Positions 7,952-23,016 of a stretch of 40,076 nucleotides of DNA are shown here, piece after piece; positions within the stretch are counted from its first letter, which is position 1, and each line of letters begins with the position of its first letter. The stretch is from a virus: positions 1-40,076 of the IMG/VR virus record IMGVR_UViG_3300035142_000041. The stretch is one strand, 5' to 3'. The position numbers and the translations under genes are program-made. Below the pieces are notes generated by a model, which had not been told where the DNA came from, did not search any database, and was given only the letters and a program-made list of their open reading frames with translations.

Positions 7952-10123
7952 ATGAGCAAAATAATAACTATAATAGAAATAGATGTAAAAAAACTAACCA
8001 GCATTTTTATTAGTTATGAGCCTGGTATACGTTTTGCGACTTTAAGCCCAGATCCTGCGGAGCCGTTTGTTGATACAGACGGTCGCGTTTGGTTTTGGAC
8101 GAACCAGGGATCCAAAAAAATTACTGCGCAGGCTGTAAGAATAATTGACAATACAACAAAAACTGTAATTGATTTATTCCCGACAAGTTCCTTAGTGAAC
8201 TTAAGAACTCAACCTAACGGTTTTTTTTACGACACAGAAACGACTAATTTATTTTTAAATTTAGGGACAGGCCGAGACATAAGCAAAAAATATTTTATTG
8301 ACGTCGGGCAAAAAGAAGGGTTTACCGACAAAGTCGATGGAATTAGAATTGAAAAAGCGCACTATAATAATTTATATTATCCGCCGTTACTTAAAAATGC
8401 ACCGTCAATAAAATATAACAAAGAAACATTGTATTATGGAGTGTTTAAAGAAAACTCGATAAACGTTACTTTTGATAATAACGAAGGTTTTTTTGACGAT
8501 TACGGAAGAAACATTTTTAATAATACTGCTATAATTAAAATTGCTCCGGAAGGAACCGAATATGAAAATTTTGAAACTATTTTCAACGGCATTGTTGCGA
8601 GTTATTCAACTAGTTTAAAACAATTTAAAATAAAATTAAAAAGTAAAATTTTTGGTTTTACTCGAAAGCTGCCAGTTAATAAATTTACTAAATCTGAATA
8701 TTCTTTTTTGTCAGATAACGATGTTGATAAACCTGTACCTCTCGCGTATGGTAGCGTTATTGGAGTAGAACCTTATATAATTAACCAGGAGAATGCAACC
8801 GCAACAGATTATTTTTATTATTTAGCAGAGAACGTAAGTAGTGTTGAAGAGGTGCGAATTGACGGTGTAGTATACGCAGGATATACAGAATATTTAGATG
8901 AGGGATATATCTCTATCCCGACAGCAGATGCAAAAGACGTCGACGACAATTTTTTAGATGTTATAGTTGATTTTACGGGTGGTTCTGCAAATGGGCTTAC
9001 TGTTATGCGAGATATTATTACAAAATACATCGGTGCAACATATAACGGTGATAATTACGATACAAATCAGTGGAGCGAGCAAGAAAGTATAGCGAAAGAC
9101 ATTACATATTTTATAAATGAAAAAACAGAAATTAAAAAAATATTTGAAAAAATTTCTTTTGCTCAATTTGGTTTTTTTGATGTTACGAAAAACGGCAAGT
9201 TTACTTTTAGAAGTTTTTCGGAAAGTGCGCAACTTAAAACAGCTTTGTTATATGATGACTGGATCTCAGATCCGACAAGAACAGAAAATTTTAATGAGTT
9301 TTTGACAAGCGCAACTTTTAAATACAATAAAAATATTTCAACTGGAAAATTTTTTACTCTTGAAAATAAAGTTAATGAAGACGTATTGTTGCAAAAATAC
9401 GGACTTGCAAAAGAAAAAGAATTTGAAATAAAATTAGCAAATCAGTCTGACGTCGAGGACTTTTCTAATTTATTTCTTGCAGATAGAAACGATATACTTA
9501 CAACTTATTCCAGAACCTGTGATTTAAAACACGGTAATGCTGCTGCACAATTTAAAGATATAGAAATAATGGATTTAATAAGTACAGCGCATAACAGAAA
9601 TCAAGATGATTATAATGTTTATGAAATAACTGGAAAAAGCTACAATATAGACAAAGAACAACTAACGTTTGAAATGCGATTTTTAAAAGAATTAAATTTG
9701 TCTGATTATGTGAAAGAGGGTTTTTATAAATGCGAAGGCGATATTGATGTAGGCGGAATAGATTTTAATCATTTAGTCAATTTAGATTTTTCGTTTTTTG
9801 ATGAAACTATAAATTATTATGATTTAGATTTTTATAATAATTTTTACCTAGCACCTAACTTTTGCTATTATTCGAAGCTATATCAACGACCTGCCGGGTT
9901 TACAGAAATAAGATTGACAGTATCGAGCACAGGTGGCCGAATAAGATTTCAGTATAGAGACATTCAAAATTCTGGGATTATACCTAATTTTACAGGTTTG
10001 ACGACATTAAGTTCAGGATTGAATATTATAACGTTGCCCGGTATACAGAATTTGCAATATAGAATTTTTGGTGTCAATTCTGACGCAGAAATAATAAATA
10101 TAATAGAAACAAGTATAACATAA
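7952..10123 (+). CDS. Large tail tip / hub protein (Tal-like)
   Basis: The 723-residue protein takes the place of the tail-associated hub protein between the distal tail and fibre genes. Residues about 140-470 contain hub-like beta domains, and AYGSVIGVEPYIINQ is a typical 'complete construction' phrase of tail hub proteins. The last ~120 residues form a separate beta domain. No peptidase or lysozyme motif was seen. Confidence 0.6.
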   Translation: MSKIITIIEIDVKKLTSIFISYEPGIRFATLSPDPAEPFVDTDGRVWFWTNQGSKKITAQAVRIIDNTTKTVIDLFPTSSLVNLRTQPNGFFYDTETTNLFLNLGTGRDISKKYFIDVGQKEGFTDKVDGIRIEKAHYNNLYYPPLLKNAPSIKYNKETLYYGVFKENSINVTFDNNEGFFDDYGRNIFNNTAIIKIAPEGTEYENFETIFNGIVASYSTSLKQFKIKLKSKIFGFTRKLPVNKFTKSEYSFLSDNDVDKPVPLAYGSVIGVEPYIINQENATATDYFYYLAENVSSVEEVRIDGVVYAGYTEYLDEGYISIPTADAKDVDDNFLDVIVDFTGGSANGLTVMRDIITKYIGATYNGDNYDTNQWSEQESIAKDITYFINEKTEIKKIFEKISFAQFGFFDVTKNGKFTFRSFSESAQLKTALLYDDWISDPTRTENFNEFLTSATFKYNKNISTGKFFTLENKVNEDVLLQKYGLAKEKEFEIKLANQSDVEDFSNLFLADRNDILTTYSRTCDLKHGNAAAQFKDIEIMDLISTAHNRNQDDYNVYEITGKSYNIDKEQLTFEMRFLKELNLSDYVKEGFYKCEGDIDVGGIDFNHLVNLDFSFFDETINYYDLDFYNNFYLAPNFCYYSKLYQRPAGFTEIRLTVSSTGGRIRFQYRDIQNSGIIPNFTGLTTLSSGLNIITLPGIQNLQYRIFGVNSDAEIINIIETSIT

Positions 10124-11971: not shown

Positions 11972-12310
11972 ATGAAAACAAAAATAATTAAATTTTTAGA
12001 AATAATTGGAATACCATTTTTGGCAGCGTCGTTAACGGCGCTGCTCTGGGTAAATAGTCACATAACATCGAACGCAAAAGATATAAGTTTTCTTTCGCAA
12101 CGATTAACTATACAAATAAACGACTACAAAGAATATCGCAGAGAATCTCTCGAATATCGTAAAAACGTAACTGACTATTTGCGGCAAATAAACGAAAATA
12201 TTGCCGATGTTACAGTCGGAATAAAAGTTTTGCAAGAAAAAATGAAGGATAAAGAAACAAAAAATGGAAAAAATTCGAAAATGTATGCTGCTGAGTCAGA
12301 AGGCATATAA
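11972..12310 (+). CDS. Membrane-anchored coiled-coil protein, possible lysis or superinfection factor
   Basis: The 112-residue protein has one N-terminal membrane helix (about 8-28, IIGIPFLAASLTALLWV) followed by a long charged helix (about 40-95) likely to form a coiled coil. This layout resembles XhlA-type or spanin-like accessory lysis proteins. It lies 3 bases after the fibre gene and overlaps the lipase gene by 47 bases, so both probably belong to the same release module. No single family match is claimed. Confidence 0.5.
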   Translation: MKTKIIKFLEIIGIPFLAASLTALLWVNSHITSNAKDISFLSQRLTIQINDYKEYRRESLEYRKNVTDYLRQINENIADVTVGIKVLQEKMKDKETKNGKNSKMYAAESEGI

Positions 12311-12995
12311 AGGAAAATACGGAAAAACAAACATAGATAAAGAAATAACAGGCGTTACCTGGTATACAGATATAGAGTTTTACACTTGCTATGACAGTCA
12401 AAATAATCTATATATTGTTTTTAAAGGATCATCTGGTTTGCAAGATTGGATAGATAACCTGGATTTTTTATTTAAAAAAGACGGGAAATTCAAAATCCAT
12501 TCAGGCCATCTGGATCAATTTAAAAAGGTTAAAAATGAAATCTTTGCTATTGTCGCAGAACATCACATAAATTATCAGACAAAAATATATGTGACAGGCC
12601 ATAGCCTGGGAGGCTCTCTTGCGCACATAACTGGGTTAATGCTGGTTAGGCATTTCCCGTATTTAACAAATTTTTTGCATATTTACAGTTATGGAGCGAA
12701 TAAATGCTTTAATTACAAAACTGTAAAATGGTATAATAAGCATGTACAGTATTCAACTCGAGTTGTCAACAACGATGATATAGTCCCTAAACTACCGCCT
12801 AAAACATCGTTATTCGGATTATTAAAAAATCTGTCTTTTTTTCATGTTAAAAATAAAGTTAGAATTGGTAAAAAGCAGCCCTGGTGGTATATTTTCCGAA
12901 TTTTTACAAATATAAAAGGCGACATAAAGTCTCATTACCCGCAAGAATATGTCAAAAATCTGACAAGAGCGGGACTCGAACCCGCATCGTCCTGA
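12264..12995 (+). CDS. Class 3 lipase-like alpha/beta hydrolase
   Basis: The 243-residue protein carries the lipase nucleophile elbow G-H-S-L-G-G at residues 112-117 (Ser114), an NNDDIVPKLPP segment at 169-179 that supplies the acid residue (Asp171 or 172), and a late SHYPQEY segment with His224. Together these make a full Ser-Asp-His triad as in the PF01764 (lipase class 3) family. An oxyanion-type IVFKGSSG stretch is at 51-58. There is no signal peptide. A second in-frame ATG at 12285 is an alternative start. The last residues (RAGLEPASS) are coded by the antisense of a tRNA-like T arm, so the true C-terminal function ends before them. It may cleave host membrane lipids during lysis; that role is inferred from its place at the end of the late operon. 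Confidence 0.75.
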   Translation: MEKIRKCMLLSQKAYKGKYGKTNIDKEITGVTWYTDIEFYTCYDSQNNLYIVFKGSSGLQDWIDNLDFLFKKDGKFKIHSGHLDQFKKVKNEIFAIVAEHHINYQTKIYVTGHSLGGSLAHITGLMLVRHFPYLTNFLHIYSYGANKCFNYKTVKWYNKHVQYSTRVVNNDDIVPKLPPKTSLFGLLKNLSFFHVKNKVRIGKKQPWWYIFRIFTNIKGDIKSHYPQEYVKNLTRAGLEPASS

Positions 12996-13048
12996 TTCAG
13001 GATAGTTCCCACGCTGCAAACACATACGATTGTTTGCCCTACCTTGCC
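12961..13048 (-). tRNA. tRNA-like gene lacking a canonical D arm
   Basis: On the minus strand, GGCAAGG (13048-13042) pairs with TCTTGTC (12968-12962) with two G-U pairs. A perfect T arm (GCGGG, loop TTCGAGT, CCCGC) occupies 12985-12969 and the discriminator is A at 12961. CCA is not encoded. There is no normal D arm with GG in its loop. Instead a 7-bp hairpin (GCAAACA/TGTTTGC, 8-base loop) and a 5-bp hairpin with a 3-base loop (TCCTG/CAGGA) fill the middle. No 5-bp anticodon stem with a 7-base loop and U33 could be drawn. It begins one base after the stop of the minus-strand gene ending at 13049 and overlaps the lipase end by 35 bases. Confidence 0.5.
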
Positions 13049-13315
13049 TTAAAATCTTTCTTTAAATTTTTTCTGATTTAAAGATATTTCTTTTTTTACT
13101 TTTAAATTTTTATTCTTAGCATTTTTTAACATTTCATAAGTTATAGTTCCCCCGGGGTTTACACTTTCTTGTAATTCGCTTAAAACTTCATCTGTAAACC
13201 TGAAAGCATAGTTCGCAGTTTTCCGGGTATCATAACAGCCAGGCCGCCACACTTGATATGAACTTATAACATATTCATATGTTCTTTTTTTTTCATTATA
13301 AATTTTGTGAATCAT
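13049..13315 (-). CDS. Hypothetical small phage protein
   Basis: The 88-residue protein starts after a GGAAGGT ribosome site. A conserved-looking centre (WRPGCYDTRKTANYAFRFTDEVLSELQ) is followed by a Lys/Asn-rich tail. The family is not named here. It is the last coding gene of a leftward operon and its stop codon touches the tRNA-like gene, so both are probably on one transcript. Confidence 0.7.
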   Translation of the reverse strand: MIHKIYNEKKRTYEYVISSYQVWRPGCYDTRKTANYAFRFTDEVLSELQESVNPGGTITYEMLKNAKNKNLKVKKEISLNQKKFKERF

Positions 13316-13358
13316 TTTTTACCTTCCCAGTTATACTTTTTCATAAAATCATCCAATC

Positions 13359-13529
13359 TTATTCCTTTTTTCCCCCAACACTAATACATAAACTAAAAAA
13401 TAAAAAATGTATAAAATAATTATTTATATAAATAACCTTATTTTTGTATTTTGTAATTTCAAAATACAATCCGAATCCTTTTTTAATTCTTTTAATATTT
13501 ATAAAAAAATTAATTCCAACATCTTTCAT
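13359..13529 (-). CDS. Small hypothetical protein with C-terminal hydrophobic segment
   Basis: A 56-residue frame starts at an ATG that overlaps the stop of the upstream mini-gene (ATGA). It has a basic N-terminal half and a hydrophobic stretch near the C-terminus (YFIHFLFFSLCISV) that could insert in a membrane. It reads in the same direction as its operon neighbours. Expression is plausible by coupling but not shown. Confidence 0.4.
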   Translation of the reverse strand: MKDVGINFFINIKRIKKGFGLYFEITKYKNKVIYINNYFIHFLFFSLCISVGGKKE

Positions 13530-13573
13530 AAACTAGCCCCACAATTTTTACAATATTCTTGATTTTCTTTCAT
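13526..13573 (-). CDS. Mini-ORF with a C-x-x-C knuckle
   Basis: A 15-codon frame (MKENQEYCKNCGASL) follows a good AAAGGAG site at normal spacing and is coupled by ATGA to the 56-residue gene downstream. The single CxxC suggests the remains of a zinc ribbon or a leader peptide that loads ribosomes for the next gene. Confidence 0.3.
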   Translation of the reverse strand: MKENQEYCKNCGASL

Positions 13574-13578
13574 TGTTT

Positions 13579-14124
13579 TTACTCCTTTTCTAAAATTGCA
13601 AATCTGTCATTTAACATTTTAATTTCATGCAATTTTTCTTTTGTTTTTAAATTCTCCCCTAATTGCTCTTTTAATTCTTTTAATTCTTCTTTAAATTTTT
13701 GACATTCTTTATTTATATTTTCACACTCTTCAGAAATTCGTTTATTAGATTCTTTGTACTTTTCAATTTGTTTATATAAAAATGTTCGTGTTGTATCGTA
13801 AGATCGTCTATTTTCTTGTACTTGTTCAAAATATTCTTTAAAAGTGTCGGTGTAGTATTCACTTATCTCATTTTCTATCCCATATCCACCAATAATTACC
13901 AGCTCACACATTATATTGTCATAAATAAATTTTATTGAGGCTTCAAAACGAGAGCCCTCCGGGCAATCATGATTTCCATCTTTAAATTCATTATTCGTAT
14001 TAACGATATAGATATTCCTTCCTATTTTTCCTTTTTTCAATTTGTTTACATGGCAAGCTTGGAAAAGGTCATCTATATTCAACCGGGGGAAATCTTCTTT
14101 AAATTGTGTGAATAAATCTTCCAT
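13579..14124 (-). CDS. Hypothetical protein with C-terminal coiled coil
   Basis: The 181-residue product follows an AAAGGAG site. Residues 1-105 look globular (mixed alpha/beta with an INTNNEF-like strand region), and residues about 105-178 form a heptad-rich Glu/Lys coiled coil. The coiled coil suggests oligomerisation. No family is recognised. Confidence 0.7.
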   Translation of the reverse strand: MEDLFTQFKEDFPRLNIDDLFQACHVNKLKKGKIGRNIYIVNTNNEFKDGNHDCPEGSRFEASIKFIYDNIMCELVIIGGYGIENEISEYYTDTFKEYFEQVQENRRSYDTTRTFLYKQIEKYKESNKRISEECENINKECQKFKEELKELKEQLGENLKTKEKLHEIKMLNDRFAILEKE

Positions 14125-14147
14125 TGTTTACTCCTTTCCTTGAAGGT

Positions 14148-14161
14148 GGGGCCGAAGCCCC
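14148..14161 (-). promoter_or_regulatory. cUUCGg tetraloop hairpin in the leader of the 14124 gene
   Basis: On the minus strand GGGGC and GCCCC flank a UUCG loop, the very stable C(UUCG)G hairpin. It lies about 25 bases before the start of the minus gene at 14124 and is not followed by a U-run. It is more likely an mRNA processing or stability element than a terminator. Confidence 0.5.
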
Positions 14162-14255
14162 GTTAAAAACTAAAATATTTTAAATAAATATTATGAACGG
14201 CACCTTTTTTTTCGGCTGGTGCAGGCCTTTATTTTTAAATCGATATTTTTTCGAT

Positions 14256-14732
14256 TTAATTTACATTTAAATTATAAAATAAATCGCAAATTCGTGACAA
14301 ACAAAAATCAAATAGACTTTCTTGAATATCGTCTTCAACATTTTTAAAATTACATTCTACAGTTGTCGTTTTTTTTCTAAAATCTTCAATTACGCTAATA
14401 ATAAACCCAGGCTCAATATCTTCTTTTTTTTGTAAATTCGGCGCGATATAAAATAATAAAGAAAAAACTGAATCCCCATGATTCGAAAAATATTCGTGAT
14501 GAAGTATGAAAGAAGCACCAACATTGTATTTCATATGATATAAAAACAATTTTTCTTCGTCAGTGAGTTCATCTATTCCGTAATAATAATTTTCTAATTT
14601 TTTTACAAGCTTGAATAGAAAATTGTCTTCATCTGCGAGTAATTCTTGTAGAGTTATTAGATTTTTCGCCGCATTATCTGTACCGTCATGTAACGGTAGA
14701 TCTTCAATAATTTTAAGTTTTTTTAAATCCAT
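14256..14732 (-). CDS. Hypothetical protein
   Basis: The 158-residue, acidic, mostly helical protein starts after a GGGGGA site. A segment near 60-100 (DEEKLFLYHMKYNVGASFILHHEYFSNHGDSVFSLL, quoted in part elsewhere as FILHHEYF) is rich in aromatic residues. No motif is recognised. It is the third gene of the leftward operon from the 15225-15253 promoter. Confidence 0.65.
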   Translation of the reverse strand: MDLKKLKIIEDLPLHDGTDNAAKNLITLQELLADEDNFLFKLVKKLENYYYGIDELTDEEKLFLYHMKYNVGASFILHHEYFSNHGDSVFSLLFYIAPNLQKKEDIEPGFIISVIEDFRKKTTTVECNFKNVEDDIQESLFDFCLSRICDLFYNLNVN

Positions 14733-14753
14733 CTGTATAATCCCCCTTTTTTT

Positions 14754-14966
14754 TTATATGTTTTTATAAAACATAAATTCTTCAGATATTTTTTTAGAAA
14801 ATAAATATCCTAAATTATGTAATTTAGTTTTTATTTTTTTTAATGTTGGAAAACCATAATCAAGATCAAAACTAATAGTGACTCCATAATCTTCTTTATT
14901 ATGTTCAACATATAATTCTAAATTTGATGGATATTTTTTTAAATTAAAATCTTTTATTCTTTTCAT
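14754..14966 (-). CDS. Hypothetical small protein
   Basis: The 70-residue protein (MKRIKDFNLKKYPSN...) uses the ATG at 14966, which is preceded by an AAAAGGATG site. An upstream in-frame start would overlap the previous gene and has no ribosome site. It is Lys-rich with alternating strands (LELYVEHNKEDYGVTISFDL). Function unknown. Confidence 0.65.
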   Translation of the reverse strand: MKRIKDFNLKKYPSNLELYVEHNKEDYGVTISFDLDYGFPTLKKIKTKLHNLGYLFSKKISEEFMFYKNI

Positions 14967-14980
14967 TTTGATCATCCTTT

Positions 14981-15187
14981 TTAGTTGTTTTGCATTTGTT
15001 GCAAAACGCAATAAACTTCCTCTAAAAATTTTTCTCTGCTGCGAAAACCATAATAATCGTTTTCCTTTCTAACTTCTTCACATGCTTTATAATAATCCTT
15101 CATCTTAAAAACACAATTAGAAAAATCCCCAGCACTTGCTCTTTTTACACTTGCGAAACTTATTCTTTTTTGTTTTGTTAATTTCAT
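14981..15187 (-). CDS. First gene of the leftward operon, hypothetical
   Basis: The 68-residue protein (MKLTKQKRISFASVKRAS...) starts at ATG 15187 after an AAAGGGGATTT site. A longer frame exists but its upstream codons lie inside the promoter. The N-terminus is basic, the rest helical. Its promoter and leader are almost the same as those of the 21952 gene on the other strand, so the two are probably regulated together. Confidence 0.65.
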   Translation of the reverse strand: MKLTKQKRISFASVKRASAGDFSNCVFKMKDYYKACEEVRKENDYYGFRSREKFLEEVYCVLQQMQNN

Positions 15188-15291
15188 TTTTAAATCCCCT
15201 TTATTCTGTAATAATCTTAAATTAAATATAGCAACAAGGTTACCTTTTGTCAAGCTTTTTTTTTATTTTTTTTCAAAAAAGTTATAAATCA
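15185..15291 (-). repeat. Promoter-leader cassette, inverted copy A
   Basis: Read on the minus strand, this ~106-base stretch matches 21849-21954 on the plus strand except for one substitution and two single-base length differences. It contains a TTTATAACTTTTTT element, an A-tract, the promoter, a transcribed leader and the ribosome site with start codon. Confidence 0.9.
15225..15253 (-). promoter_or_regulatory. Leftward promoter for the 15187 operon
   Basis: TTGACA (15253-15248), 17-base spacer, TATATT (15230-15225) on the minus strand. The A-tract upstream looks like an UP element. The spacer starts with AAGGT-A-ACCTT, a near-palindrome just after the -35 and so a candidate operator. Confidence 0.85.
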
Positions 15292-15696
15292 TAATATTTT
15301 CTTGACCAAATCGGAAAACCCCTGGTTTTTTGTTTCAAAATTTAATTTTTGTGAAATCTCTGCAATAACAAGATCTCTGTCGAGTTGCACGTTTTTAAGA
15401 ATACTGCTAACAATATTATTCACAGCTTTAACAAAGTCTTTTGTATTTTTAAAATCGCTGAAAATTGGTAACTCAATGTTATTTATTAGTTTTTTAATAA
15501 ATTCCCGATCACTTTTATATTTTATCGCCAGCTTAATTCTTTCCCAATGCTGTCCACTACTAGGTATAGGTGGCATATGCCCTTCATTACCCTCAATTGT
15601 AATACTTGGACCATTTACTAAACCACCACGTGATCCTTTTGGAACATATTCACCAGCTTTTGGAGGTTTTTCACCTGGTTTTATTTTAATTCCCAT
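15289..15696 (-). CDS. YjzC-like N-terminal domain protein
   Basis: The 135-residue protein uses ATG 15696, which follows an AGGAG site; codons further upstream lack one. Residues 5-55 (KPGEKPPKAGEYVPKGSRGG, then HMPPIPSSGQHWE) resemble the small YjzC-like family of Gram-positive bacteria. The C-terminal 75 residues are helical. Its stop lies within the start of repeat cassette A. Function unknown. Confidence 0.6.
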   Translation of the reverse strand: MGIKIKPGEKPPKAGEYVPKGSRGGLVNGPSITIEGNEGHMPPIPSSGQHWERIKLAIKYKSDREFIKKLINNIELPIFSDFKNTKDFVKAVNNIVSSILKNVQLDRDLVIAEISQKLNFETKNQGFSDLVKKIL

Positions 15697-15731
15697 AATT
15701 TTTCTCCTATGGGATGGGAAACATCTTAACA

Positions 15732-15775
15732 ATTGATTGACAATTTAATTGGAAACAATTAAATTGACAATCAAT
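15732..15775. repeat. Near-perfect 20-bp inverted repeat with GAAA loop
   Basis: The two 20-base arms (15732-15751 and 15756-15775) match at 19 of 20 positions around GAAA. Each strand also contains TTG(A/T)CA and TAAATT at 17-base spacing. It lies in the leader region of the minus gene that starts at 15696 and may be an operator or a symmetric promoter-operator. No U-run follows it. Confidence 0.8.
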
Positions 15776-15840
15776 AACACTTATTTATTGTCAGATGCCG
15801 GTCATCATATTTCTATGCCCAGTATTTGACCTTTATAATA

Positions 15841-15864
15841 AACTCCAGATTGCCGTCTGGAGTT
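15841..15864. repeat. 9-bp hairpin
   Basis: AACTCCAGA and TCTGGAGTT pair around a TTGCCG loop. Neither side has a convincing U-run. It may be an additional stop or stability element between leftward units. Confidence 0.5.
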
Positions 15865-15904
15865 TAATATCTCATCTCTAAAAATTTTTAAACTCTTCAT
15901 ATTT

Positions 15905-15930
15905 TAAAAAATTGCCGGCCTTTCACCGGC
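15905..15930 (-). terminator. Terminator of the leftward 16781 operon
   Basis: On the minus strand GCCGG-TGAAAGG-CCGGC is followed by AATTTTTT, a simple intrinsic terminator about 45 bases after the stop of the 15973-16155 gene. Confidence 0.6.
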
Positions 15931-15972
15931 TCGCCTGCTCGCGCAAGTAAATTTTTAAAATAAAGGAGAAAA

Positions 15973-16155
15973 CTAAATATACCTGTCGAGACTGTTTTGT
16001 TGTCGATAGTATTCGTATTCCTGCCTGTCTGCTTCCAATTTAAGTTTATCATTAAAACTTAAACTCTCATAATATTCGTCATAAGTCATTTCTTCGATCC
16101 GTTCTTTTTTCTCTTTTATGTTTTGCAGCATTACTGCTGTTAATAATTTTTTCAT
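15973..16155 (-). CDS. Small helical hypothetical protein
   Basis: The 60-residue protein is rich in Lys, Glu and Tyr and likely all helical. A GGAGG site precedes the ATG. A 5-bp GC hairpin (16180-16167) stands just before the ribosome site. It is the last gene of the leftward operon. Function unknown. Confidence 0.65.
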   Translation of the reverse strand: MKKLLTAVMLQNIKEKKERIEEMTYDEYYESLSFNDKLKLEADRQEYEYYRQQNSLDRYI

Positions 16156-16191
16156 GTTTCCTCCAGGCCCCTGCCGGGGCGTTTAAAATTT

Positions 16192-16602
16192 TTATAATAT
16201 TACTGATTTTGGTATCCAGATTATTTTTCTTGCAACAAGCATTTTTATCGCTTTTTCTGTTGTTGTTATTATTTTTCCTGTAAATGTTTTTTTTAAATTA
16301 TTTTTTTCTGCAAACCAGGTTTTAACTGCAAATTTATTTTCTTCTTTAGATTTTATAGTTTCTTCTAAAACTAAAAATTTTTTGGAAATCCACACATGTT
16401 TACAGACACTAATTTCTTTCCTAAGTCGATTATAATATTTTACAGCTATTTTGTAGCTTTTAACTGTTTCATCTAAAACAGGGCAATTTTCTAATCTTTG
16501 CAAAAAACTATAATTAGAAAAAACACATTTTGTCATTTGTAAAAATGCTGGGTTTTCTTCGTCTACTAAATATCGAACATTTTTAATAATTAAAGAAATC
16601 AT
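16192..16602 (-). CDS. Hypothetical protein
   Basis: The 136-residue basic protein starts with a strand-rich segment (MISLIIKNVRYLVDEENP) and continues as helices and strands with many Lys. The start overlaps the stop of the upstream gene by 4 bases (ATGA), so it is probably coupled. No family recognised. Confidence 0.65.
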   Translation of the reverse strand: MISLIIKNVRYLVDEENPAFLQMTKCVFSNYSFLQRLENCPVLDETVKSYKIAVKYYNRLRKEISVCKHVWISKKFLVLEETIKSKEENKFAVKTWFAEKNNLKKTFTGKIITTTEKAIKMLVARKIIWIPKSVIL

Positions 16603-16837: not shown

Positions 16838-16877
16838 GCTTTTTTTTAAAAAAAAATAAAAAAAGTTATAAAAATAG

Positions 16878-16905
16878 TTGACAAAAAGATTATCTTCTAT
16901 ATATT
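16878..16905 (+). promoter_or_regulatory. Rightward promoter of the divergent pair
   Basis: TTGACA (16878-16883), 16-base spacer, TATATT (16900-16905). AAGAT-T-ATCTT, a perfect 11-base palindrome, lies directly after the -35 (16887-16897) and is a candidate operator. An AAAGTTATA copy at 16863 is an inverted partner of TATAACTTT at 16815. Confidence 0.8.
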
Positions 16906-16936
16906 ATAAATAAATTTAAAAAAAAGGAGTTGTGAG

Positions 16937-17131
16937 ATGAAATGTATATGGTCTAGATCTTTTGATGAACATTTTGTGGTGAGTTGTAATAATATAACAA
17001 GAGCCAGCAGGGAATTTAAACCCTGTGAAAAAATTAAAAATACAAAATGGGATTTTATTTTCTGTCCTTTCTGCGGACAAAAAATAAAAATAATAGATAT
17101 GTATAAAAATGGAGAAAAAAATGAATTTTGA
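16937..17131 (+). CDS. Small zinc-ribbon protein
   Basis: The 64-residue protein follows an AAAGGAG site and is the first rightward early gene. It has Cys pairs including C-P-F-C-G-Q-K-I near residue 43, a typical half zinc ribbon; the partner cysteines are probably Cys3/Cys17 or Cys30. It overlaps the nuclease gene by 11 bases. Such proteins often act as transcription or host-takeover factors; the role here is unknown. Confidence 0.65.
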   Translation: MKCIWSRSFDEHFVVSCNNITRASREFKPCEKIKNTKWDFIFCPFCGQKIKIIDMYKNGEKNEF

Positions 17132-18185
17132 ATTTTTTGAACATCTACAGATTGAATATCTGAATGATGATTATTTAGTTGAACCGGAACATTATAACAT
17201 AAGAATAGACAATTCCGGCCGCCGGTTCTACGCAAGAGTCTACAAAGCAGGCGAGAAAGTTTATGTCAAGACTGCTCCGTCCGTGACAACGATCTTGGCA
17301 GAATTAAAACCAGGTTTCGGCTTAATGGAATTTTACAAAAAAAATGACGTGGAAAAAATAAAATTTATCTCGCATTACTCAGCATTGTACGGAACAATTT
17401 TCCACATTCTTGCAGGAAAATTGCTCAGAGGCGAAAAAATATCTTGTTCTAAGGGTAAAGTTTACGAAATGATGCAAGAACACTGTACAGAGCATTTAGA
17501 ACAGTCTGAGAGGCTGTTTGAATATATGCGAGAAGCAAAAAGAGACATAATCAAAGATTTGTTTGCTTTTCAGCAATGGATCAAAGATTTTGACGTTAAG
17601 CCGATTGCAATTGAATATCCTGTTATGTGCAATGAATACGCCGGAACGATTGACCTGGTTGCTGAGATAAGCATAAAAAAGAAATACACAAAATCTGAAT
17701 TGATCGAAATAGCATTAAAAAAAACAAAGCACAAAAAAACGCATTTGAACAAGATGAAAAAAGAAGAACTGGAAATAATTTTAAAGCTGAATAAGCAAGA
17801 AAGAAAGCTGGTTCTGATCGATCTAAAATCCGGTCTTAACGGTTTCTTTCGTCCGCATATCATGCAGTTACACGCATACCGGACAGCCTGGAATGAAGAA
17901 CACAGTGACTTGCTGATTGATGCGATTTTCAACTGGGGATGCAAGAATTATCGCTATCCAGCTGTAAAGTATAACTTTACAGATCAGAGTGACAACCCGG
18001 TTATCTTTGCAGAGTTCGAAGCGTTCGTTAAATATTATTACTGCGATCCTGAACGCAGCAAGATCAGACCGGTTTACGCTATGAGTGAAGATAAAACGTT
18101 CAACGAAGATGAACACGACACACTTATAGAGTTAGTCGATCCGGTAGAAGAATTGCGGGAATACTATGCAATGGAGGTTTTTTAA
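17121..18185 (+). CDS. RecB/Cas4-type PD-(D/E)XK exonuclease with an inserted SAP-like segment
   Basis: The 354-residue protein (start MNFEFFEH, GGAG 6 bases upstream) has the nuclease core: E165 in IEYPV, D178 in GTIDLV, D234-x-K236 in LIDLKSG, then the Q249-L-H-A-Y253 motif. Between D178 and D234 lies a Lys-rich helical insert (about 189-224, YTKSELIEIALK ... MKKEELEIIL) resembling a SAP or HeH DNA-binding element. It probably processes double-strand ends for recombination, together with the downstream RDF-like protein and the SSB at 30282. Confidence 0.8.
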   Translation: MNFEFFEHLQIEYLNDDYLVEPEHYNIRIDNSGRRFYARVYKAGEKVYVKTAPSVTTILAELKPGFGLMEFYKKNDVEKIKFISHYSALYGTIFHILAGKLLRGEKISCSKGKVYEMMQEHCTEHLEQSERLFEYMREAKRDIIKDLFAFQQWIKDFDVKPIAIEYPVMCNEYAGTIDLVAEISIKKKYTKSELIEIALKKTKHKKTHLNKMKKEELEIILKLNKQERKLVLIDLKSGLNGFFRPHIMQLHAYRTAWNEEHSDLLIDAIFNWGCKNYRYPAVKYNFTDQSDNPVIFAEFEAFVKYYYCDPERSKIRPVYAMSEDKTFNEDEHDTLIELVDPVEELREYYAMEVF

Positions 18186-18850
18186 TGCGAATTGTAAGAA
18201 AAAATAAAGAACGTCGAATGTCGTCGTTTATTGGTAAAATTAAAATTGGCGAAAAAAACGAAAATGGTTATCCTGTTAGTTTAGATTATTTTCGAGCAAG
18301 TTGTAAAAATGTTGAAAATATTCAACGTTTTGTGCAAATTTTCGGTAAAAAACCAACAGCGCTAAAAATTCGTATTCCCGATGTTGAGAACTGTCTTGAT
18401 GTTCGGTACGAATTGCGCAAGGGAACAAAATTGGTTGCAATCTCAGACGGAGAACAGGTGTGGACTTATGATAAACAGAAAGGCGAAAAAGTCTTGCATG
18501 AAAAAACATTCGATCAGGTGCATGATAGCTTCGAAAAAAAAGCCTGTAACGCCTGGGCGGAAATATTAAGGCTTGCTTTTATTTTACCAGATACCCAGTT
18601 AATGGGCATTTGGCTTTTCGAGACGAAAGGAGCAAAGTCAACTATTAAGAATATAGAAAATTATTTCGATACGTTGCAGAAACAAAATTTGCCGTTAAAC
18701 AAACTAACGTACATACTAACGGTAGAAAAAGTTAAAAGTCAAATTTTGGAAAAGGCTGTTTTTCCGGTCGTGAATATCGTAGCAGATCTACAAGAGAACG
18801 CCCAGTTTATCGGGAATGATAATAAAAATTTAATAGATAACGAGGTATAA
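18185..18850 (+). CDS. RDF-like / recombination-associated protein
   Basis: The 221-residue protein shows the layout of the gp3-like recombination directionality factor family found in many phages: G-K-I-K-I-G-E-K near 18-25, L-D-Y-F-R-A-S near 33-39, a G-K-K-P-T-A-L-K-I motif near 54-62 and an I-S-D-G-E-Q-V-W segment near 85-92. In strictly lytic phages this family is often beside nucleases. It shares 1 base with the exonuclease stop. No integrase is present here, so a repair or recombination role is more likely than excision control. Confidence 0.5.
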   Translation: MRIVRKNKERRMSSFIGKIKIGEKNENGYPVSLDYFRASCKNVENIQRFVQIFGKKPTALKIRIPDVENCLDVRYELRKGTKLVAISDGEQVWTYDKQKGEKVLHEKTFDQVHDSFEKKACNAWAEILRLAFILPDTQLMGIWLFETKGAKSTIKNIENYFDTLQKQNLPLNKLTYILTVEKVKSQILEKAVFPVVNIVADLQENAQFIGNDNKNLIDNEV

Positions 18851-18853
18851 TAT

Positions 18854-19204
18854 ATGAACAAAAACAGCAAAGAATATTTAAACTTTAAAAACAAAATATT
18901 AAAAAAACTTGAGGCGTACAGCCACACGCAATTATATAAGATGAAAGCATACGGGATGTACTACAATCGGGCTATTAACCCGAGTTGGAAAAAACTACAT
19001 CAGATTGCTGAAGCAATCGAACAAACAAAGCCCCAAAAGCCGAGGCGAGGTCGCATCAGACAGCACGATCAGGCAACGATTGATAAAATATTAAAGATGC
19101 GCAGCCAGGGACGTACACATAAGTACATTGCGGAACAGTTAGATATGACTAACCAGCAAGTCGGTCTAATTTATAATTATTATAAAAAAAAGGATAATGA
19201 TTAA
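18854..19204 (+). CDS. Homeodomain-like HTH DNA-binding protein
   Basis: The 116-residue basic protein has a C-terminal helix-turn-helix (residues about 70-110: DQATIDKILKMRSQGRTH, then KYIAEQLDMTNQQVGLIY) like the resolvase/Hin type. The N-terminal half is helical and may hold a second domain. Its recognition-helix coding sequence (19130-19161) is repeated exactly at the end of the next gene. The next gene starts at its last base, so the two are coupled. Confidence 0.65.
   Translation: MNKNSKEYLNFKNKILKKLEAYSHTQLYKMKAYGMYYNRAINPSWKKLHQIAEAIEQTKPQKPRRGRIRQHDQATIDKILKMRSQGRTHKYIAEQLDMTNQQVGLIYNYYKKKDND
19130..19161 (+). repeat. 32-bp direct repeat, left copy
   Basis: Identical to 19663-19694. 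It codes for A-E-Q-L-D-M-T-N-Q-Q-V in the HTH gene. Both copies are read in the same protein frame. The pair flanks the nuclease-like gene. Confidence 0.95.
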
Positions 19205-19707
19205 TGACTACAATAGAAATGGAAATTTATTTATCTAAGTTTTTTAATTTCAGAAAAAATATAATAGTTCCTAATGTGAGTTGGGGACTTAATATTCACG
19301 AATGTGATTTATTTATAATTTCAAAATCAGGCTATGTTACAGAAATTGAAATAAAAATATCAAAATCTGATTTAATAAAAGATAAGGATAAAAAACATAG
19401 TCATGAATCAAATAGAATTAAAAATTTGTATTTTGCGTTCCCTGATAATATAGATATAGAATTTATTAAAGAACACATTCCTCGAAGAGCTGGTATTATA
19501 ATTGTTAAAAATAATGGTATTTGTCATATTTATAGAGGTTCTGAGATAAATAAAAAAGCTGTTAAATTAAAAGAAAAAGAGATTTATCAAGTAGCTAGAT
19601 TAGGAGCTATGAGAATTTGGAGTTTGAAAAATAAAATAGTAAAGGAAAAGAAAAAATTATTAGCGGAACAGTTAGATATGACTAACCAGCAAGTTTTAAA
19701 AAATTAA
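19204..19707 (+). CDS. Putative PD-(D/E)XK nuclease, possible inserted gene
   Basis: The 167-residue protein contains E33-x-D35-L-F-I-I followed by V-T-E47-I-E49-I-K51, the core of PD-(D/E)XK nucleases (compare MmcB-like repair and restriction endonucleases). Its last 16 residues repeat part of the recognition helix of the preceding HTH protein, caused by a 32-bp direct repeat. The gene therefore looks like an insertion into, or a duplication event at, the HTH gene. It may cut DNA during repair or act as a mobile endonuclease; both are inference. Confidence 0.6.
   Translation: MTTIEMEIYLSKFFNFRKNIIVPNVSWGLNIHECDLFIISKSGYVTEIEIKISKSDLIKDKDKKHSHESNRIKNLYFAFPDNIDIEFIKEHIPRRAGIIIVKNNGICHIYRGSEINKKAVKLKEKEIYQVARLGAMRIWSLKNKIVKEKKKLLAEQLDMTNQQVLKN
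19663..19694 (+). repeat. 32-bp direct repeat, right copy
   Basis: Exact copy of 19130-19161, 533 bases downstream, within the last codons of the nuclease-like gene. Confidence 0.95.
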
Positions 19708-19748
19708 AGCAAGATTTCAATATTACAATATTACAATTGAGGGAAAAA

Positions 19749-20015
19749 ATGGACAGATTTAAATTTATAGAAAACAGAAATATAAACGGCCCGGTTATTT
19801 GTGTAAACAAAGATTTAATCGAGATAAAAAATAGAGCTGAAAAGTTTTTTAGTCTGCCCAAATTGGCCAGGAAGATTTTTAAAATAAAAAAAAGAAAAAT
19901 AGATCCTAGAAAAAATTGGGAAGCCATAAGTGAAGCCGAAAAAAATTTACAGATGGCTGGGTTGAGTACAAGTCGGTCGATAAATTGTAGATGTGCGCAT
20001 ATTATTTTAAAATAA
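19749..20015 (+). CDS. Duplicated small basic protein, copy 1, with a MuF-like tail
   Basis: The 88-residue protein starts at ATG 19749 after GAGGG. Residues 1-47 closely match the protein at 20366 (MDRFKFIENRNINGPVI, DLIEIK-x-RA-x-KF). Residues about 50-88 differ: the end (GLSTSRSINCRC) resembles the C-terminus of the MuF head protein at 36710 (GLSASQAINCRC), and the DNA is similar too. It looks like a chimera of the duplicated gene with a head-gene fragment. Function unknown. Confidence 0.65.
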   Translation: MDRFKFIENRNINGPVICVNKDLIEIKNRAEKFFSLPKLARKIFKIKKRKIDPRKNWEAISEAEKNLQMAGLSTSRSINCRCAHIILK

Positions 20016-20063
20016 TATATCCATTTTTGCTCTGACTACTTAAGTTCAGGAGAAAATTAATTA

Positions 20064-20092
20064 TTGACACCAGAATTATATTTTTTTATATT
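20064..20092 (+). promoter_or_regulatory. Promoter of structured RNA copy 1
   Basis: TTGACA (20064-20069), 17-base spacer, TATATT (20087-20092). It is homologous to the promoter of RNA copy 2, sharing ATTATTGACA-x-CAG. Expected start near 20099. Confidence 0.85.
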
Positions 20093-20098
20093 ATACAA

Positions 20099-20207
20099 AG
20101 ACAAGACTTCTTATAAACCTCTACTGTAACAAGTTTTGTAAAAAACTGAAAGCTCGTTGATCTCCCGTAGAGGACCTGAGAAGGTGGGAGATTAGCGGGC
20201 TTTTTTA
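20099..20207 (+). ncRNA. Structured pseudoknot-terminator RNA, copy 1
   Basis: P1 is CAAGACTT (20102-20109) with AAGTTTTG (20131-20138). The P1 loop holds CCTCTAC (20118-20124), which pairs with GTAGAGG (20167-20173) inside the loop of the terminator stem, giving a pseudoknot. P2 is a 16-bp stem (20151-20166 with 20186-20201). P3 is ACCT-GAGA-AGGT (20174-20185). A U-run follows (20201-20206). Copy 2 at 20736-20838 keeps the same architecture with compensatory base changes. It could be a free small RNA or an attenuator for the 47-codon gene at 20222. Confidence 0.8.
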
Positions 20208-20221
20208 TTTTGAGGTATAAA

Positions 20222-20365
20222 ATGAATTTAAAAACATGGGAAGAATTAAAACAAAGAATAAACGACATGATAGAAACAGACGAACCAGGCTCAGAGAGTC
20301 AGCGCGCCTGGCATGTAGTTTTAATGACAATGAATGAAATAGAAAAAGAAGGGGAAGAGGTTTAA
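20222..20365 (+). CDS. Small acidic hypothetical protein
   Basis: A 47-codon frame (MNLKTWEELKQRINDMIETD...) starts after GAGGTATAAA, the ribosome site type common in this genome. It lies just behind the terminator of RNA copy 1, so it is made by read-through or from elsewhere, and is followed directly by the copy 2 protein (TAA-ATG). It is Glu-rich and helical. Function unknown. Confidence 0.6.
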   Translation: MNLKTWEELKQRINDMIETDEPGSESQRAWHVVLMTMNEIEKEGEEV

Positions 20366-20638
20366 ATGGACAGATTTAAATTTATAGAAAACAGGAATAT
20401 AAACGGACCAGTCATCTACAATAACAATGATTTAATTGAGATAAAAAGCAGAGCTGGAAAGTTTTTAAGCATGCCGGGAATGGCGCGGAAGATTTTTAAG
20501 TTTAAAAAGAAAATAAAAATGATATATGGAAATGAATTTCATTTTTTCGAAATAGATGAAGCGGCAGGAGTAAGCGACGAAACAGAGGACAGCGTTTCGA
20601 AAAAAATTTTACAGATAATTGCAAAATATAATTATTGA
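20366..20638 (+). CDS. Duplicated small protein, copy 2
   Basis: The 90-residue protein matches copy 1 (19749) over residues 1-50, then has its own acidic C-terminus (FFEIDEAAGVSDETEDSVSKKILQIIAKY). Its TGA stop forms part of the -35 box of the promoter for RNA copy 2. The two genes and their RNAs form a tandem duplication. Function unknown; a link between the protein and the RNA is suggested only by co-duplication. Confidence 0.65.
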   Translation: MDRFKFIENRNINGPVIYNNNDLIEIKSRAGKFLSMPGMARKIFKFKKKIKMIYGNEFHFFEIDEAAGVSDETEDSVSKKILQIIAKYNY

Positions 20639-20663
20639 CATCAGGGCTATCTTTTTGTATATT
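20635..20663 (+). promoter_or_regulatory. Promoter of structured RNA copy 2
   Basis: TTGACA (20635-20640), 17-base spacer, TATATT (20658-20663). The -35 overlaps the stop codon of the upstream gene. Confidence 0.85.
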
Positions 20664-20669
20664 GAATAG

Positions 20670-20840
20670 TGATTTGTAACATACCTCAGTCGCTTATTGA
20701 GGTGCAATAGAACAGACGTTATGTCTGTTCTATTGCAAGACTTATTGGAACTCTCCGCTTCAGTAAGTTTTGAATAAAACTGAAAGCTCGTTAATCTTCC
20801 GCGGAGACCCGAAAGGGGGGAGATTGACGGGCTTTTTTAT
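20670..20840 (+). ncRNA. Structured pseudoknot-terminator RNA, copy 2
   Basis: Two extra 5' hairpins are present: ACCTCA/TGAGGT (20683-20703) and a perfect 14-bp stem with GTTAT loop (20704-20736). The core repeats copy 1: P1 CAAGACTT/AAGTTTTG (20736-20743, 20765-20772), pseudoknot TCTCCGC (20752-20758) with GCGGAGA (20801-20807), P2 of 16 bp (20785-20800, 20818-20833), P3 CCC-GAAA-GGG, and a U-run. Three of the seven pseudoknot pairs show double compensatory change relative to copy 1. A zinc-ribbon gene starts 12 bases after. Confidence 0.85.
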
Positions 20841-20852
20841 TTGGAGGAAAAA

Positions 20853-21047
20853 ATGTATTGGAACGATGTAAAATGTCCAAGTTGTGGAATAGAAGAATAT
20901 TTTATTGATGACATTTCTGATTATGCTTTTAGTATTTTAGTTGAAGAGAGGTTTATTATTGAGTGTTATAATTGCAAGAAAAAAATAATAATTAGACTTG
21001 AAGATTGTCAAGTTAATGCCGAGGTTAAAAATGATACAAAATATTGA
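20853..21047 (+). CDS. Small zinc-ribbon protein
   Basis: The 64-residue protein (MYWNDVKCPSCGIEEYF...) starts after GGAGG. C-P-S-C at 8-11 and C-Y-N-C near 41-44 give a complete four-Cys zinc ribbon. It overlaps the replication gene by 17 bases. Expression probably depends on read-through of the RNA copy 2 terminator. Confidence 0.65.
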   Translation: MYWNDVKCPSCGIEEYFIDDISDYAFSILVEERFIIECYNCKKKIIIRLEDCQVNAEVKNDTKY

Positions 21048-21858
21048 GAAAGTAAAAAATATAAAAACAGAGTGTGACGGCGATTTAATTTTTGTGACAG
21101 TTGCAAAATATAAACTGTTTTTGAGTTACGGTAAAATAGGAATAGATGCTTATGTTTTATATTCGCATTTAATGTTTACGGCAAGATTGCAGGGAACCAA
21201 CCAGGTCAAAGCAAAAGATATTTATTTACGCGCTGGCCTGGAATGGGGAGAAAAAAGAGTAAAAAGAGCCAAAAGATTATTATATGATTTAAATTTGATA
21301 GAACTAATAAGGGTAAGAGATAATAAAGGTATATTTACAGATTCTTATTTGCGAGTAGAGACCAGGACAACTCCTTTTGAGATAAAAAGTGTTGAAAATC
21401 AATCCACAGGGTCAGTTGCCACCCCGGTGGATAGCCACCCCGGTGGCAATGAAGAACAAATGCTTAAACGAAAAAGTAAATGCTTAAACGAAAAAGTAAA
21501 TACATATACTAATTTCTACGAAACAATTTTTAATAAATGGATTTTTTATAAAGACTTAATGCAACATAAATCCATAAATACTTTCAAAAAGCAGATAAGC
21601 AAAAACAAAGTAAAAGATATACTTGAAGAATACTCTTTAACAGAAGTAACTAACTCTATAGACAATTATAATTTTGTTTTAACTAATAGTGAATATACTT
21701 TTACATATAGATGGCCATTGTGGGATTTTTTAAATCGGGGATTACACAAATTCGTGGATCTGGCAAACCCCCTTACTAACTACAAAAAAAGAAACTATAA
21801 CCAGGAGAGCCAATCTAATACAGTAAACAGACGTATAGTAAATGCCTCTGATTTATAA
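21031..21858 (+). CDS. Replication initiator-like protein
   Basis: The 275-residue protein starts at ATG 21031 (GAGGT upstream). Residues about 15-115 resemble the winged-helix N-terminus of phage replication proteins (YGKIGIDAYVLYSHLM, KRVKRAKRLLYDLNLIELIRV). A short variable linker (about 125-150) is coded by DNA with direct and inverted repeats. The C-terminal region (FNKWIFYKDLMQHKSIN ... FTYRWPLWDFLNRGLHKF) matches the conserved C-terminal domain of phage initiators. It probably recruits the DnaB-type helicase at 25421. Confidence 0.65.
   Translation: MIQNIEKVKNIKTECDGDLIFVTVAKYKLFLSYGKIGIDAYVLYSHLMFTARLQGTNQVKAKDIYLRAGLEWGEKRVKRAKRLLYDLNLIELIRVRDNKGIFTDSYLRVETRTTPFEIKSVENQSTGSVATPVDSHPGGNEEQMLKRKSKCLNEKVNTYTNFYETIFNKWIFYKDLMQHKSINTFKKQISKNKVKDILEEYSLTEVTNSIDNYNFVLTNSEYTFTYRWPLWDFLNRGLHKFVDLANPLTNYKKRNYNQESQSNTVNRRIVNASDL
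21416..21501 (+). other. Candidate replication origin inside the initiator gene
   Basis: Two 13-base copies of GCCACCCCGGTGG (21418-21430, 21434-21446), each near-palindromic, lie within a larger inverted repeat TTGCCACC/GGTGGCAA (21416-21449). They are followed by two tandem 20-base units (21458-21477, 21478-21497) and AT-rich sequence. Iterons in the middle of the initiator gene are the arrangement of lambda-like origins. Confidence 0.45.
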
Positions 21859-21954
21859 CTTTTTTGGAAAAAAATAAAAAAAAAGCTTGACAAAAGATAA
21901 CCTTGTTGCTATATTTAATTTAAGATTATTACAGAATAAAGGGGATTTAAAATG
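21849..21954 (+). repeat. Promoter-leader cassette, copy B
   Basis: Nearly identical to the minus strand of 15185-15291. It begins at the last codons of the initiator gene and ends at the start codon of the 21952 gene. Confidence 0.9.
21887..21915 (+). promoter_or_regulatory. Rightward promoter for the 21952 gene
   Basis: TTGACA (21887-21892), 17-base spacer, TATATT (21910-21915), with an upstream A-tract. AAGAT-A-ACCTT just after the -35 is a variant of the candidate operator at 15 and 16.9 kb. Confidence 0.85.
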
Positions 21955-22239
21955 AAAAATTTAAAAAAAGTTAAGTTAACAACAAATGTAAGAAGAAATA
22001 CACATTTGGCAGGAACTCAGCATGAATACAAGAGAGGACAAGAGTTAGATTTATATTTTGAAACTTTCATAGAAATTTATAATAAGAAAGGTGATTATAT
22101 AATGACTGTTGATTCTGATTATCCGTTTGGTTATAATAGCTGGTATTATTCAAAAGATGAATGTGCAACAAAAGAATTTGTTGCACCTGTTCTTGATAAT
22201 ATAAGATTAAGTTCAAATGAGTATGAAATAATATTTTAA
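21952..22239 (+). CDS. Hypothetical protein ahead of the ribozyme
   Basis: The 95-residue protein starts after AAAGGGGATTT. It is strand-rich with many Tyr (YFETFIEIYNKKGDYIM, YNSWYY). No family recognised. Its stop codon is followed at once by the hammerhead, so cleavage would give this mRNA a new 3' end 35 bases after the stop. Confidence 0.65.
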   Translation: MKNLKKVKLTTNVRRNTHLAGTQHEYKRGQELDLYFETFIEIYNKKGDYIMTVDSDYPFGYNSWYYSKDECATKEFVAPVLDNIRLSSNEYEIIF

Positions 22240-22309
22240 TTTTCGAAACGCTCCGGCAGGAAGGACGGGGCGTCCGTCGGAAGGTGGTTGACCGGCGCTG
22301 ATGAGAAAG
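22240..22309 (+). ncRNA. Type II hammerhead self-cleaving ribozyme
   Basis: All core elements are in type II order. GAAA is at 22245-22248; stem III is CGCTCCG (22249-22255) with CGGGGCG (22266-22272), 7 bp; the cleavage triplet GTC is at 22272-22274; stem I is CGTCGG (22275-22280) with CCGGCG (22292-22297), 6 bp with one G-U; CTGATGA is at 22298-22304. The open stem II is TTTTC (22240-22244) with GAAAG (22305-22309), 5 bp with one G-U. Cleavage is expected between 22274 and 22275. Stem II is AU-rich and short, so activity may be modest. Every conserved core base is present. Confidence 0.88.
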
Positions 22310-22323
22310 ACCAATTCCCTTTA

Positions 22324-22341
22324 GCCCCCTTAGCGGGGGGC
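22324..22341 (+). promoter_or_regulatory. GC-rich hairpin between the ribozyme and the STAS-like gene
   Basis: GCCCCC and GGGGGC form a 6-bp stem with a 6-base loop; TTCCCTTT and AAAGGGAA may extend it outward. It could protect the 5'-OH end made by ribozyme cleavage or set translation of the 22374 gene. There is no U-run, so it is not a terminator. Confidence 0.5.
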
Positions 22342-22373
22342 AATTTAAAAAAAGGGAAAAAAGGGGATTAAAA

Positions 22374-22676: not shown

Positions 22677-22993
22677 TGGACATAATGGATGGGATAATTC
22701 GAATGAACAAAAGAATTAAAAAAAATATAAATGTTGTAGCAGAACAACTCGGGGGAAGCTACAACGAGATAAAAAATTTAGCTTTTCAGGTCGTTGAAGA
22801 GCTAAGAAGAATGAAAGTTGACTATGCAACTCTTAGTCAACAAACTGATAAAATGAAAAGTGATTTGATTGAATGTGCTTTAATCGAATCCAAAAAAAAT
22901 TTTGATAAGTTTACTTCAAAATTTTTGACTAACCCTGAGTTTGCAAGACTTTTTAAAATAAAAATATTTAATGAATTACAAAATTTCAATTAG
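22676..22993 (+). CDS. Hypothetical helical protein
   Basis: The 105-residue protein starts at the stop of the STAS-like gene (TAATGG overlap), with later in-frame ATGs at 22685 and 22703. It is mostly helical, charged and may bind nucleic acid (KRIKKNINVVAEQLGGSYNEIK). No family recognised. The ~100 bases after it lead to the tRNA-like gene. Confidence 0.6.
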   Translation: MDIMDGIIRMNKRIKKNINVVAEQLGGSYNEIKNLAFQVVEELRRMKVDYATLSQQTDKMKSDLIECALIESKKNFDKFTSKFLTNPEFARLFKIKIFNELQNFN

Positions 22994-23016
22994 AATTTTT
23001 GTTTTTTTCTTGTAAT

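Follow-up and report, generated by a model that had tools for sequence, protein, structure and literature searches.

A tRNA-framed RNA without a D arm in a tailed-phage genome, and a wider class of tRNA-framed elements in viral contigs

A tRNA frame at a convergent gene junction

The window, meaning the whole stretch of DNA analysed here, comprises 40,076 bases of an IMG/VR record. It carries an exact terminal repeat of 127 bases and is probably a complete genome, circularised or terminally redundant. Searches with Pfam and PHROGs identify genes of a tailed phage: Terminase_3, an SPP1-type portal, Mu F, tape measure, major head protein, DnaB helicase and SSB. The closest named terminases are at most 44% identical, and their sources include Nitratiruptor and Bdellovibrio phages. 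Neither a tyrosine integrase (PF00589) nor a serine resolvase (PF00239) was found in the phage, despite a Gp3-like recombination directionality factor (PF18897) at 18185-18847 on the plus strand. Diverged repeats occupy 19747-20859 (plus strand), where stretches of 157 and 127 bases are about 80% alike and give off-diagonal matches.

One relative, IMGVR_UViG_3300035133_000039, is the sole match for the lipase, an 88-amino-acid protein, a 723-amino-acid tail protein and the tape-measure protein, each of which was searched. A search with the terminase also retrieved a 20.9-kb fragment, which has the same sequence as the window across 16848-24147, and three distant records; the lipase was found in neither the fragment nor the distant records. 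Searches with the lipase and tail protein by tblastn, and against named phages with the DNA of the element described below, returned no match.

That element, E1, lies on the minus strand at 12961-13048 and is numbered from nucleotide 1 at position 13048. It sits at a convergent junction between a leftward ORF of 88 amino acids (13049-13315, minus strand), which has no match in Pfam or PHROG, and a rightward Lipase_3 ORF (12264-12995, plus strand; PF01764, 2e-28). The TAA codon of the leftward ORF ends at 13049 and E1 begins 0 nucleotides later. Because the lipase ORF ends at 12995, its last 35 bases are antisense to E1, and the RAGLEPA in the lipase is the antisense reading of the E1 T arm. 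The lipase of the relative has the identical end, LTRAGLEPASS. No intrinsic terminator-like site was found beside E1. The leftward block that begins here (13049-16602, minus strand) contains small ORFs with G+C-rich hairpins between them, for example near 14148 and 16165, in an otherwise A+T-rich genome.

E1 is 88 nucleotides long and aligns over its full length with the Rfam tRNA model. The 5' acceptor strand, GGCAAGG (13042-13048), forms all seven pairs with 12962-12968, two of them G-U; the pairs of nucleotides 1-7 with 81-87 are G-C, G-U, C-G, A-U, A-U, G-C and G-U. U8 and A9 follow. The D-arm position is taken by a plain hairpin of 7 bp with an 8-nucleotide loop (13016-13037, nucleotides 12-33), whose pair probabilities are 0.94-1.0, and the anticodon/variable-arm position by a second hairpin of 5 bp with a 3-nucleotide loop (12990-13002, nucleotides 47-59), whose pairs can form with a model probability of 0.03-0.04. 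The T arm, GCGGG-UUCGAGU-CCCGC (12969-12985, nucleotides 64-80), is perfect in sequence and has an energy-model probability of 0.03. The 3' acceptor strand UCUUGUC and a discriminator A at nucleotide 88 (12961-12968) complete the frame, and CCA is not encoded. A first-pass annotation of this DNA had described a sound acceptor stem and T arm, two hairpins replacing the D and anticodon arms, a start directly behind a stop codon, and an overlap accounting for the RAGLEPASS end of the lipase; on all of these points it proved accurate.

The pattern exceeds chance expectation. The 40-kb window contains three perfect T-arm hairpins, compared with 0.30 per dinucleotide shuffle; a T-arm hairpin with an all-GC stem occurred in 0 of 827 dinucleotide shuffles of the window, and a T arm together with a 7/7 acceptor in about 0.023 per shuffle. 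The Rfam tRNA model aligns end to end with E1 at 24.8 bits, below the gathering score of 29, with an E-value of 0.0021 when 151 bases are searched and 0.55 when the search covers the whole window. ARAGORN in default mode calls no tRNA anywhere in the window, and at thresholds of 30-50% it reports a weak tRNA-Gln with the boundaries of E1 alongside obvious nonsense matches.

In the minimum-energy fold of E1 (-31.0 kcal/mol, compared with -28.5 kcal/mol with the T arm), the 3' strand of the T stem pairs elsewhere. Normal tRNA-Leu controls also fare badly in this energy model, with T-arm probabilities above 0.5 in just 26 of 78, so the predicted fold is weak counter-evidence to the tRNA frame.

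The relative is the single other carrier of E1 found in the viral collection. Its copy differs at two of the 88 positions, giving 97.7% identity compared with 94.2% across 1,686 bases around and including E1. This conservation is compatible with constraint, and one relative with no changed pair is too little to show it. The first-pass annotation had looked to relatives that keep the lipase end and lose the frame; no such loss is seen in this one, and since both of its substitutions are unpaired, the comparison does not test the pairing of E1.

Sister elements, and one interior in two frames

E2 and E3 are two further tRNA-framed elements on the plus strand of the same genome. E2 (23092-23200, 109 nucleotides) was found by an Rfam scan of the whole window and scores 36.0 bits with the tRNA model, above the gathering score, and is not called by ARAGORN in default mode. 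E3 (23631-23769, 139 nucleotides) was located through the third perfect T arm. The acceptor and T stems of E1, E2 and E3 are all in tRNA register, with 7/7 and 5/5 pairs. A D arm with GG in its loop is absent in E1 and present in E2 and E3, where it is of the Leu type (GUGGCGGAAUUGGUAGACG). From this arm to the GGTTCGA of the T arm there are 62 bases in E2 and 92 in E3, compared with 32-42 in normal tRNA-Leu genes; 59-89 nucleotides of other sequence stand in place of the anticodon arm.

The positions of these sisters bear on the proposal, made in the first-pass annotation, that excision of E1 matures the 3' end of the leftward mRNA. A mainly cis-acting E1, which would mature that end or separate the convergent transcripts, would account for its start immediately after a stop codon at a convergent junction, and the lack of a terminator-like site there means that other ways of ending the transcript may be needed. 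E2 and E3, in contrast, lie within rightward operons, 21 and 22 nucleotides upstream of start codons (E3 begins 4 nucleotides past a stop codon), so a 3'-end role is not general. Apart from the position of E1, nothing supports the proposal, and we regard a mainly cis-acting role as improbable.

E1 and E2 also resemble each other. The genome has just two copies of TTAAGGCAA[AG]GT, one at the very 5' end of each element, and at the sixth acceptor pair one element has G-C where the other has A-U. The shared 5' ends and the compensated pair suggest that the two are paralogues.

An interior is not tied to its frame. The relative carries the E3 interior within another frame, with the acceptor AGCCTTG/CAGGGCT and a different outer pair in the T stem; there, the GACACGG/CCGTGTC frame, directly upstream of the gene that E3 precedes in the window, contains another interior. 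A comparison of both copies of the E3 interior shows changes on both sides of 7 of 33 pairs (four in the acceptor, one in the T stem and two in an interior hairpin). All cells (100%) pair, falling to 19-38% when the partner is slid by 1-3 columns; the structure was drawn by hand from these two sequences, so these figures support compensation in the end stems and a single interior hairpin but do not establish the full structure. In a second family (L055, L078, L081 and L104), three interior pairs are changed on both sides, and the acceptor of L081 is broken at three pairs. One interior thus occurs in two frames, with both ends compensated.

Type II hammerhead ribozymes were also observed in both phages, at 22241-22315 (plus strand) of the window with 49.7 bits and at 9217-9291 (plus strand) of locus L102 from the relative with 45.5 bits. 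Both score above the Rfam threshold and lie within about 1 kb upstream of tRNA-framed RNAs.

A wider class in viral contigs and bacterial genomes

Elements of this design recur widely, in at least about a hundred other viral contigs. When viral contigs were scanned for a Leu-type D arm separated from a T arm by 62-92 bases, at least 120 stretches were returned. Among the matches listed are 122 elements, including the two from the window, with a 7/7 acceptor in 99 and a 5/5 T stem in 115; the 23 elements without a 7/7 acceptor include neighbouring tRNAs and apparent assembly slips. The matches listed comprise 108 distinct sequences, or 104 when 30-nucleotide flanks are required.

A control scan used the same arms 32-42 bases apart, and distinct elements with both stems perfect were compared. 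Among the matches listed, ARAGORN calls none of the 79 long-gap elements and 77 of the 78 normal-gap controls (73 with Leu anticodons). CCA is encoded in 1/79 long-gap elements compared with 43/78 controls, and the discriminator is A in 61/79 compared with 76/78, also among the matches listed. With fewer discriminator A residues and almost no encoded CCA, the 3' end of the class bears less resemblance to a tRNA.

Pairing of the ends holds across the class. The largest acceptor type begins with AGTCAGG; outside this group and its near variants, 35 of 47 elements among the matches listed have two acceptor strands that pair 7/7. Cross-pairing the strands of different elements outside the group gives 7/7 in only 22 of 2158 combinations (1%), and sliding the register by 1-3 positions either way gives 0/47 each time. 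These non-AGTCAGG acceptors comprise 33 different 5' strands, and the 35 with 7/7 pairing show all four Watson-Crick pairs at each of positions 1-6.

Looser criteria applied to the collected loci and the window (1.16 Mb in all) gave 158 T-arm/acceptor units outside ARAGORN's 157 calls, 94 of them with the AGTCAGG 5' strand; since the loci were picked by pattern, these counts, all taken on real sequence, describe the class and give no frequency. One contig, L056, holds 11 units beside 16 called genes. In 57 AGTCAGG-type elements, conservation extends from about nucleotide 1 to about 4 bases beyond nucleotide 73, so the conserved stretch matches the tRNA frame in extent. The interiors are diverse, falling into 103 unrelated groups among 129 distinct inserts, and no common function is visible in so many unrelated groups.

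E1 shares with this class a paired acceptor and T arm, U8, a non-anticodon interior and its invisibility to ARAGORN; it is missing the Leu-type D arm present in most members. Departures from that arm are common, occurring in 30 of 99 AGTCAGG/GGTCAGG-frame elements. A hairpin replaces the D arm at L056 11140-11229, much as in E1, and some AGTCAGG/GGTCAGG-frame elements carry a hairpin inside the D loop. E1 is the weakest of the class, given its sub-threshold Rfam score, missing D arm and a T arm outside the predicted optimum. That E1 belongs to a large class, of which its own genome holds two clearer examples, goes beyond the first-pass annotation.

The sub-threshold score and missing D arm, with two G-U acceptor pairs and a 5' end common to E1 and E2, are what would be expected of a decaying relic, in which an E2-like tRNA-framed gene, or a tRNA, was copied and the copy then lost its D arm and stopped working. 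Decay sits poorly, however, with the fact that all seven acceptor and five T-stem pairs can form, that a compensatory change separates E1 from E2 at the sixth acceptor pair, and that neither of the two changes in the relative falls in a stem; the frequency of D-arm departures elsewhere in the class also makes a missing D arm less telling. We consider a relic rather unlikely, though a serious rival reading for E1 taken singly.

The long gap could instead represent a short intron in the anticodon loop, spliced out to yield a decoding tRNA. With introns allowed, ARAGORN does report a tRNA in 72 of 83 long-gap elements. The anticodons it assigns belong to many different amino acids, and the rate is no lower for shuffled inserts (229 of 249); on this basis a spliced tRNA was rejected. 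Self-splicing introns are longer than these inserts, which are too short to be such elements. The phage encodes an RNA-ligase-like protein (28024-28755, plus strand; PF09414, 1.5e-12) that might join exons. RNA ligase is not enriched among records that carry such elements, being present in 5/50 element records and 11/50 controls (50 of 59 chosen records per group), and it was dismissed as a partner. A 2017 survey describes three cyanobacterial tRNAs whose anticodon loops hold short inserts, which it classes as group I introns (PMC5733544); this favours splicing. On balance, a spliced decoding tRNA seems very unlikely.

Members also occur outside the viral collection. Lactobacillus phage Lenus has an unannotated candidate (37361-37467), flanked on each side by a tRNA-Arg gene, with a 7/7 acceptor and an unusual T arm, as read by eye. 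A bacterial genome collection yielded 39 stretches, of which 35 gave rows (L140, L145, L160 and L166 gave none); by eye, 17 of the 35 look like true members and not tandem-tRNA artefacts, 14 with a 7/7 acceptor and three (L144, L155 and L176) without. They include Sphingobacterium cellulitidis, whose element is the same as that of viral contig L074, Pararobbsia alpina and two Nostoc strains.

Cyanobacterial arrays were observed at L146 3700-5150 (minus strand), L164 6900-7400 (minus strand) and L151 5450-5900 (plus strand). In them, a near-identical core (CCTTG..CCTTGCC..GGCCGAAGAATTGAGGGTTATC) occupies the place of the anticodon arm in several tRNA frames, and ARAGORN in default mode calls no tRNA in these three 8-kb loci. 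The core of the Nostoc and Paraprochloron arrays resembles conserved motifs quoted in the 2017 survey (PMC5733544), so a related phenomenon may already carry another name. Two further interiors share a core, at L148 4165-4290 (minus strand) in a Chlorobiaceae MAG and L149 2445-2580 (plus strand) in a Desulfobulbus MAG, and by eye they appear to covary (GGCAGT/ACTGCC versus GGCCGT/ACGGCC). A Chlorobaculum tRNA-Leu-like gene (L156 150-259, plus strand; Rfam tRNA 42.7 bits) has an interior of one long hairpin at the anticodon position and a variable arm.

Phage attachment sites frequently duplicate the 3' portion of a tRNA gene. E1 might accordingly be such a site, or a host tRNA-gene fragment left by integration, and the Gp3-like directionality factor would fit with either. 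No tyrosine integrase or serine resolvase was found, though, and the copy number, three in this genome and as many as 11 in a single contig, also speaks against this reading. Nor does a 26-base T-arm/acceptor pattern have an exact match in the bacterial genome collection, in a search that required AT before the T stem and would miss a host with the AC variant of the relative. An attachment site was rejected on these grounds, and we judge an origin by integration to be exceedingly unlikely.

Proposed role and relation to known systems

We propose that E1 is a non-decoding phage RNA built on a tRNA frame, one of three in its genome and of a large class, which is excised, stable and functional through its interior. 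We put the probability of this reading at roughly 0.6. The frame would be transcribed within a polycistronic phage mRNA and cut by host RNase P and the 3' tRNA-maturation enzymes, and the excised RNA would then receive a CCA tail. The product could be a stable RNA with protected ends and a working interior, comparable to the tRNA scaffolds made in the laboratory. Transcription, processing, CCA addition, stability and every function are predictions here.

The interior may bind a host or phage factor, or the RNA may serve as a decoy for enzymes that act on tRNA, including anti-phage defences that cut tRNAs. Of the candidate functions, a decoy or binder of tRNA-handling enzymes, defence nucleases among them, appears the most likely, because the constant part of these elements is what such enzymes read. 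Several anti-phage systems cut tRNAs, according to two reports (PMC12851939, PMC13096335). An antisense guide directed at the phage's own genome was rejected, as no match is longer than those that shuffles yield.

More tentatively, the class may consist of arrays of tRNA-capped cassettes, in which an exchangeable frame (often AGTCAGG...CCTGACTA) carries fast-changing structured cargo, with E1 as a stripped-down member; such arrays would be nature's equivalent of the tRNA scaffold. The cargo might act as decoys or binders directed at host factors, for example defence enzymes that cut tRNA, and recombination might move cassettes from one frame to another. If this cargo model is true, it would describe a general route by which phages obtain protected small RNAs, and would offer a testable idea of counter-defence. 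As an ordinary tRNA finder misses these genes, phage genomes may hold many unannotated stable RNAs. Among titles and abstract openings of open-access papers retrieved with the terms used, no phage class of this design was found.

The class parallels canonical tRNA-Leu (RF00005), with which it shares the acceptor stem, the T arm and, in most members, A73; E2 and E3 share the Leu-type D arm as well. Unlike tRNA-Leu, the class lacks an anticodon arm: no arm of the decoding type (a 7-nucleotide loop on a 5-bp stem, positions 27-43) was called in the window or in the 79 long-gap members. The gap from D arm to T arm is 62-92 nucleotides instead of 32-42, CCA is almost never encoded, and ARAGORN does not call these elements.

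Like tmRNA (RF00023), E1 would be a non-decoding RNA with a tRNA-like end domain, and the end domain of tmRNA has a degenerate D arm. Only the 17-nucleotide T arm of E1 matches the tmRNA model, however (14.5 bits, model positions 347-363 of 374), and no tag-peptide or pseudoknot domain was identified in E1; tmRNA was rejected as an identity for this reason. Phage T4 encodes the stable RNAs species 1 and 2, of unknown function, which are made together with tRNAs. The likeness to the phage-encoded stable RNA proposed here is drawn from description, and we know of no frame-plus-variable-interior design in the T4 species.

YrlA (RF02553) is likewise a noncoding RNA that mimics tRNA, and a Listeria phage study considers Y RNAs as tRNA mimics in phages (PMC12282133). 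The match of E1 to YrlA is limited to the T arm (12.7 bits, compared with a gathering score of 69) and no Ro/TROVE protein was found in the phage, so this identity was set aside; a Ro protein might still be encoded by the host.

Engineered tRNA scaffolds, as described in two reports (PMC3753655, PMC7590224), place an RNA of interest inside a tRNA frame, the same arrangement as in the phage elements. Those scaffolds are laboratory constructs, whereas the phage design is natural and recurrent.
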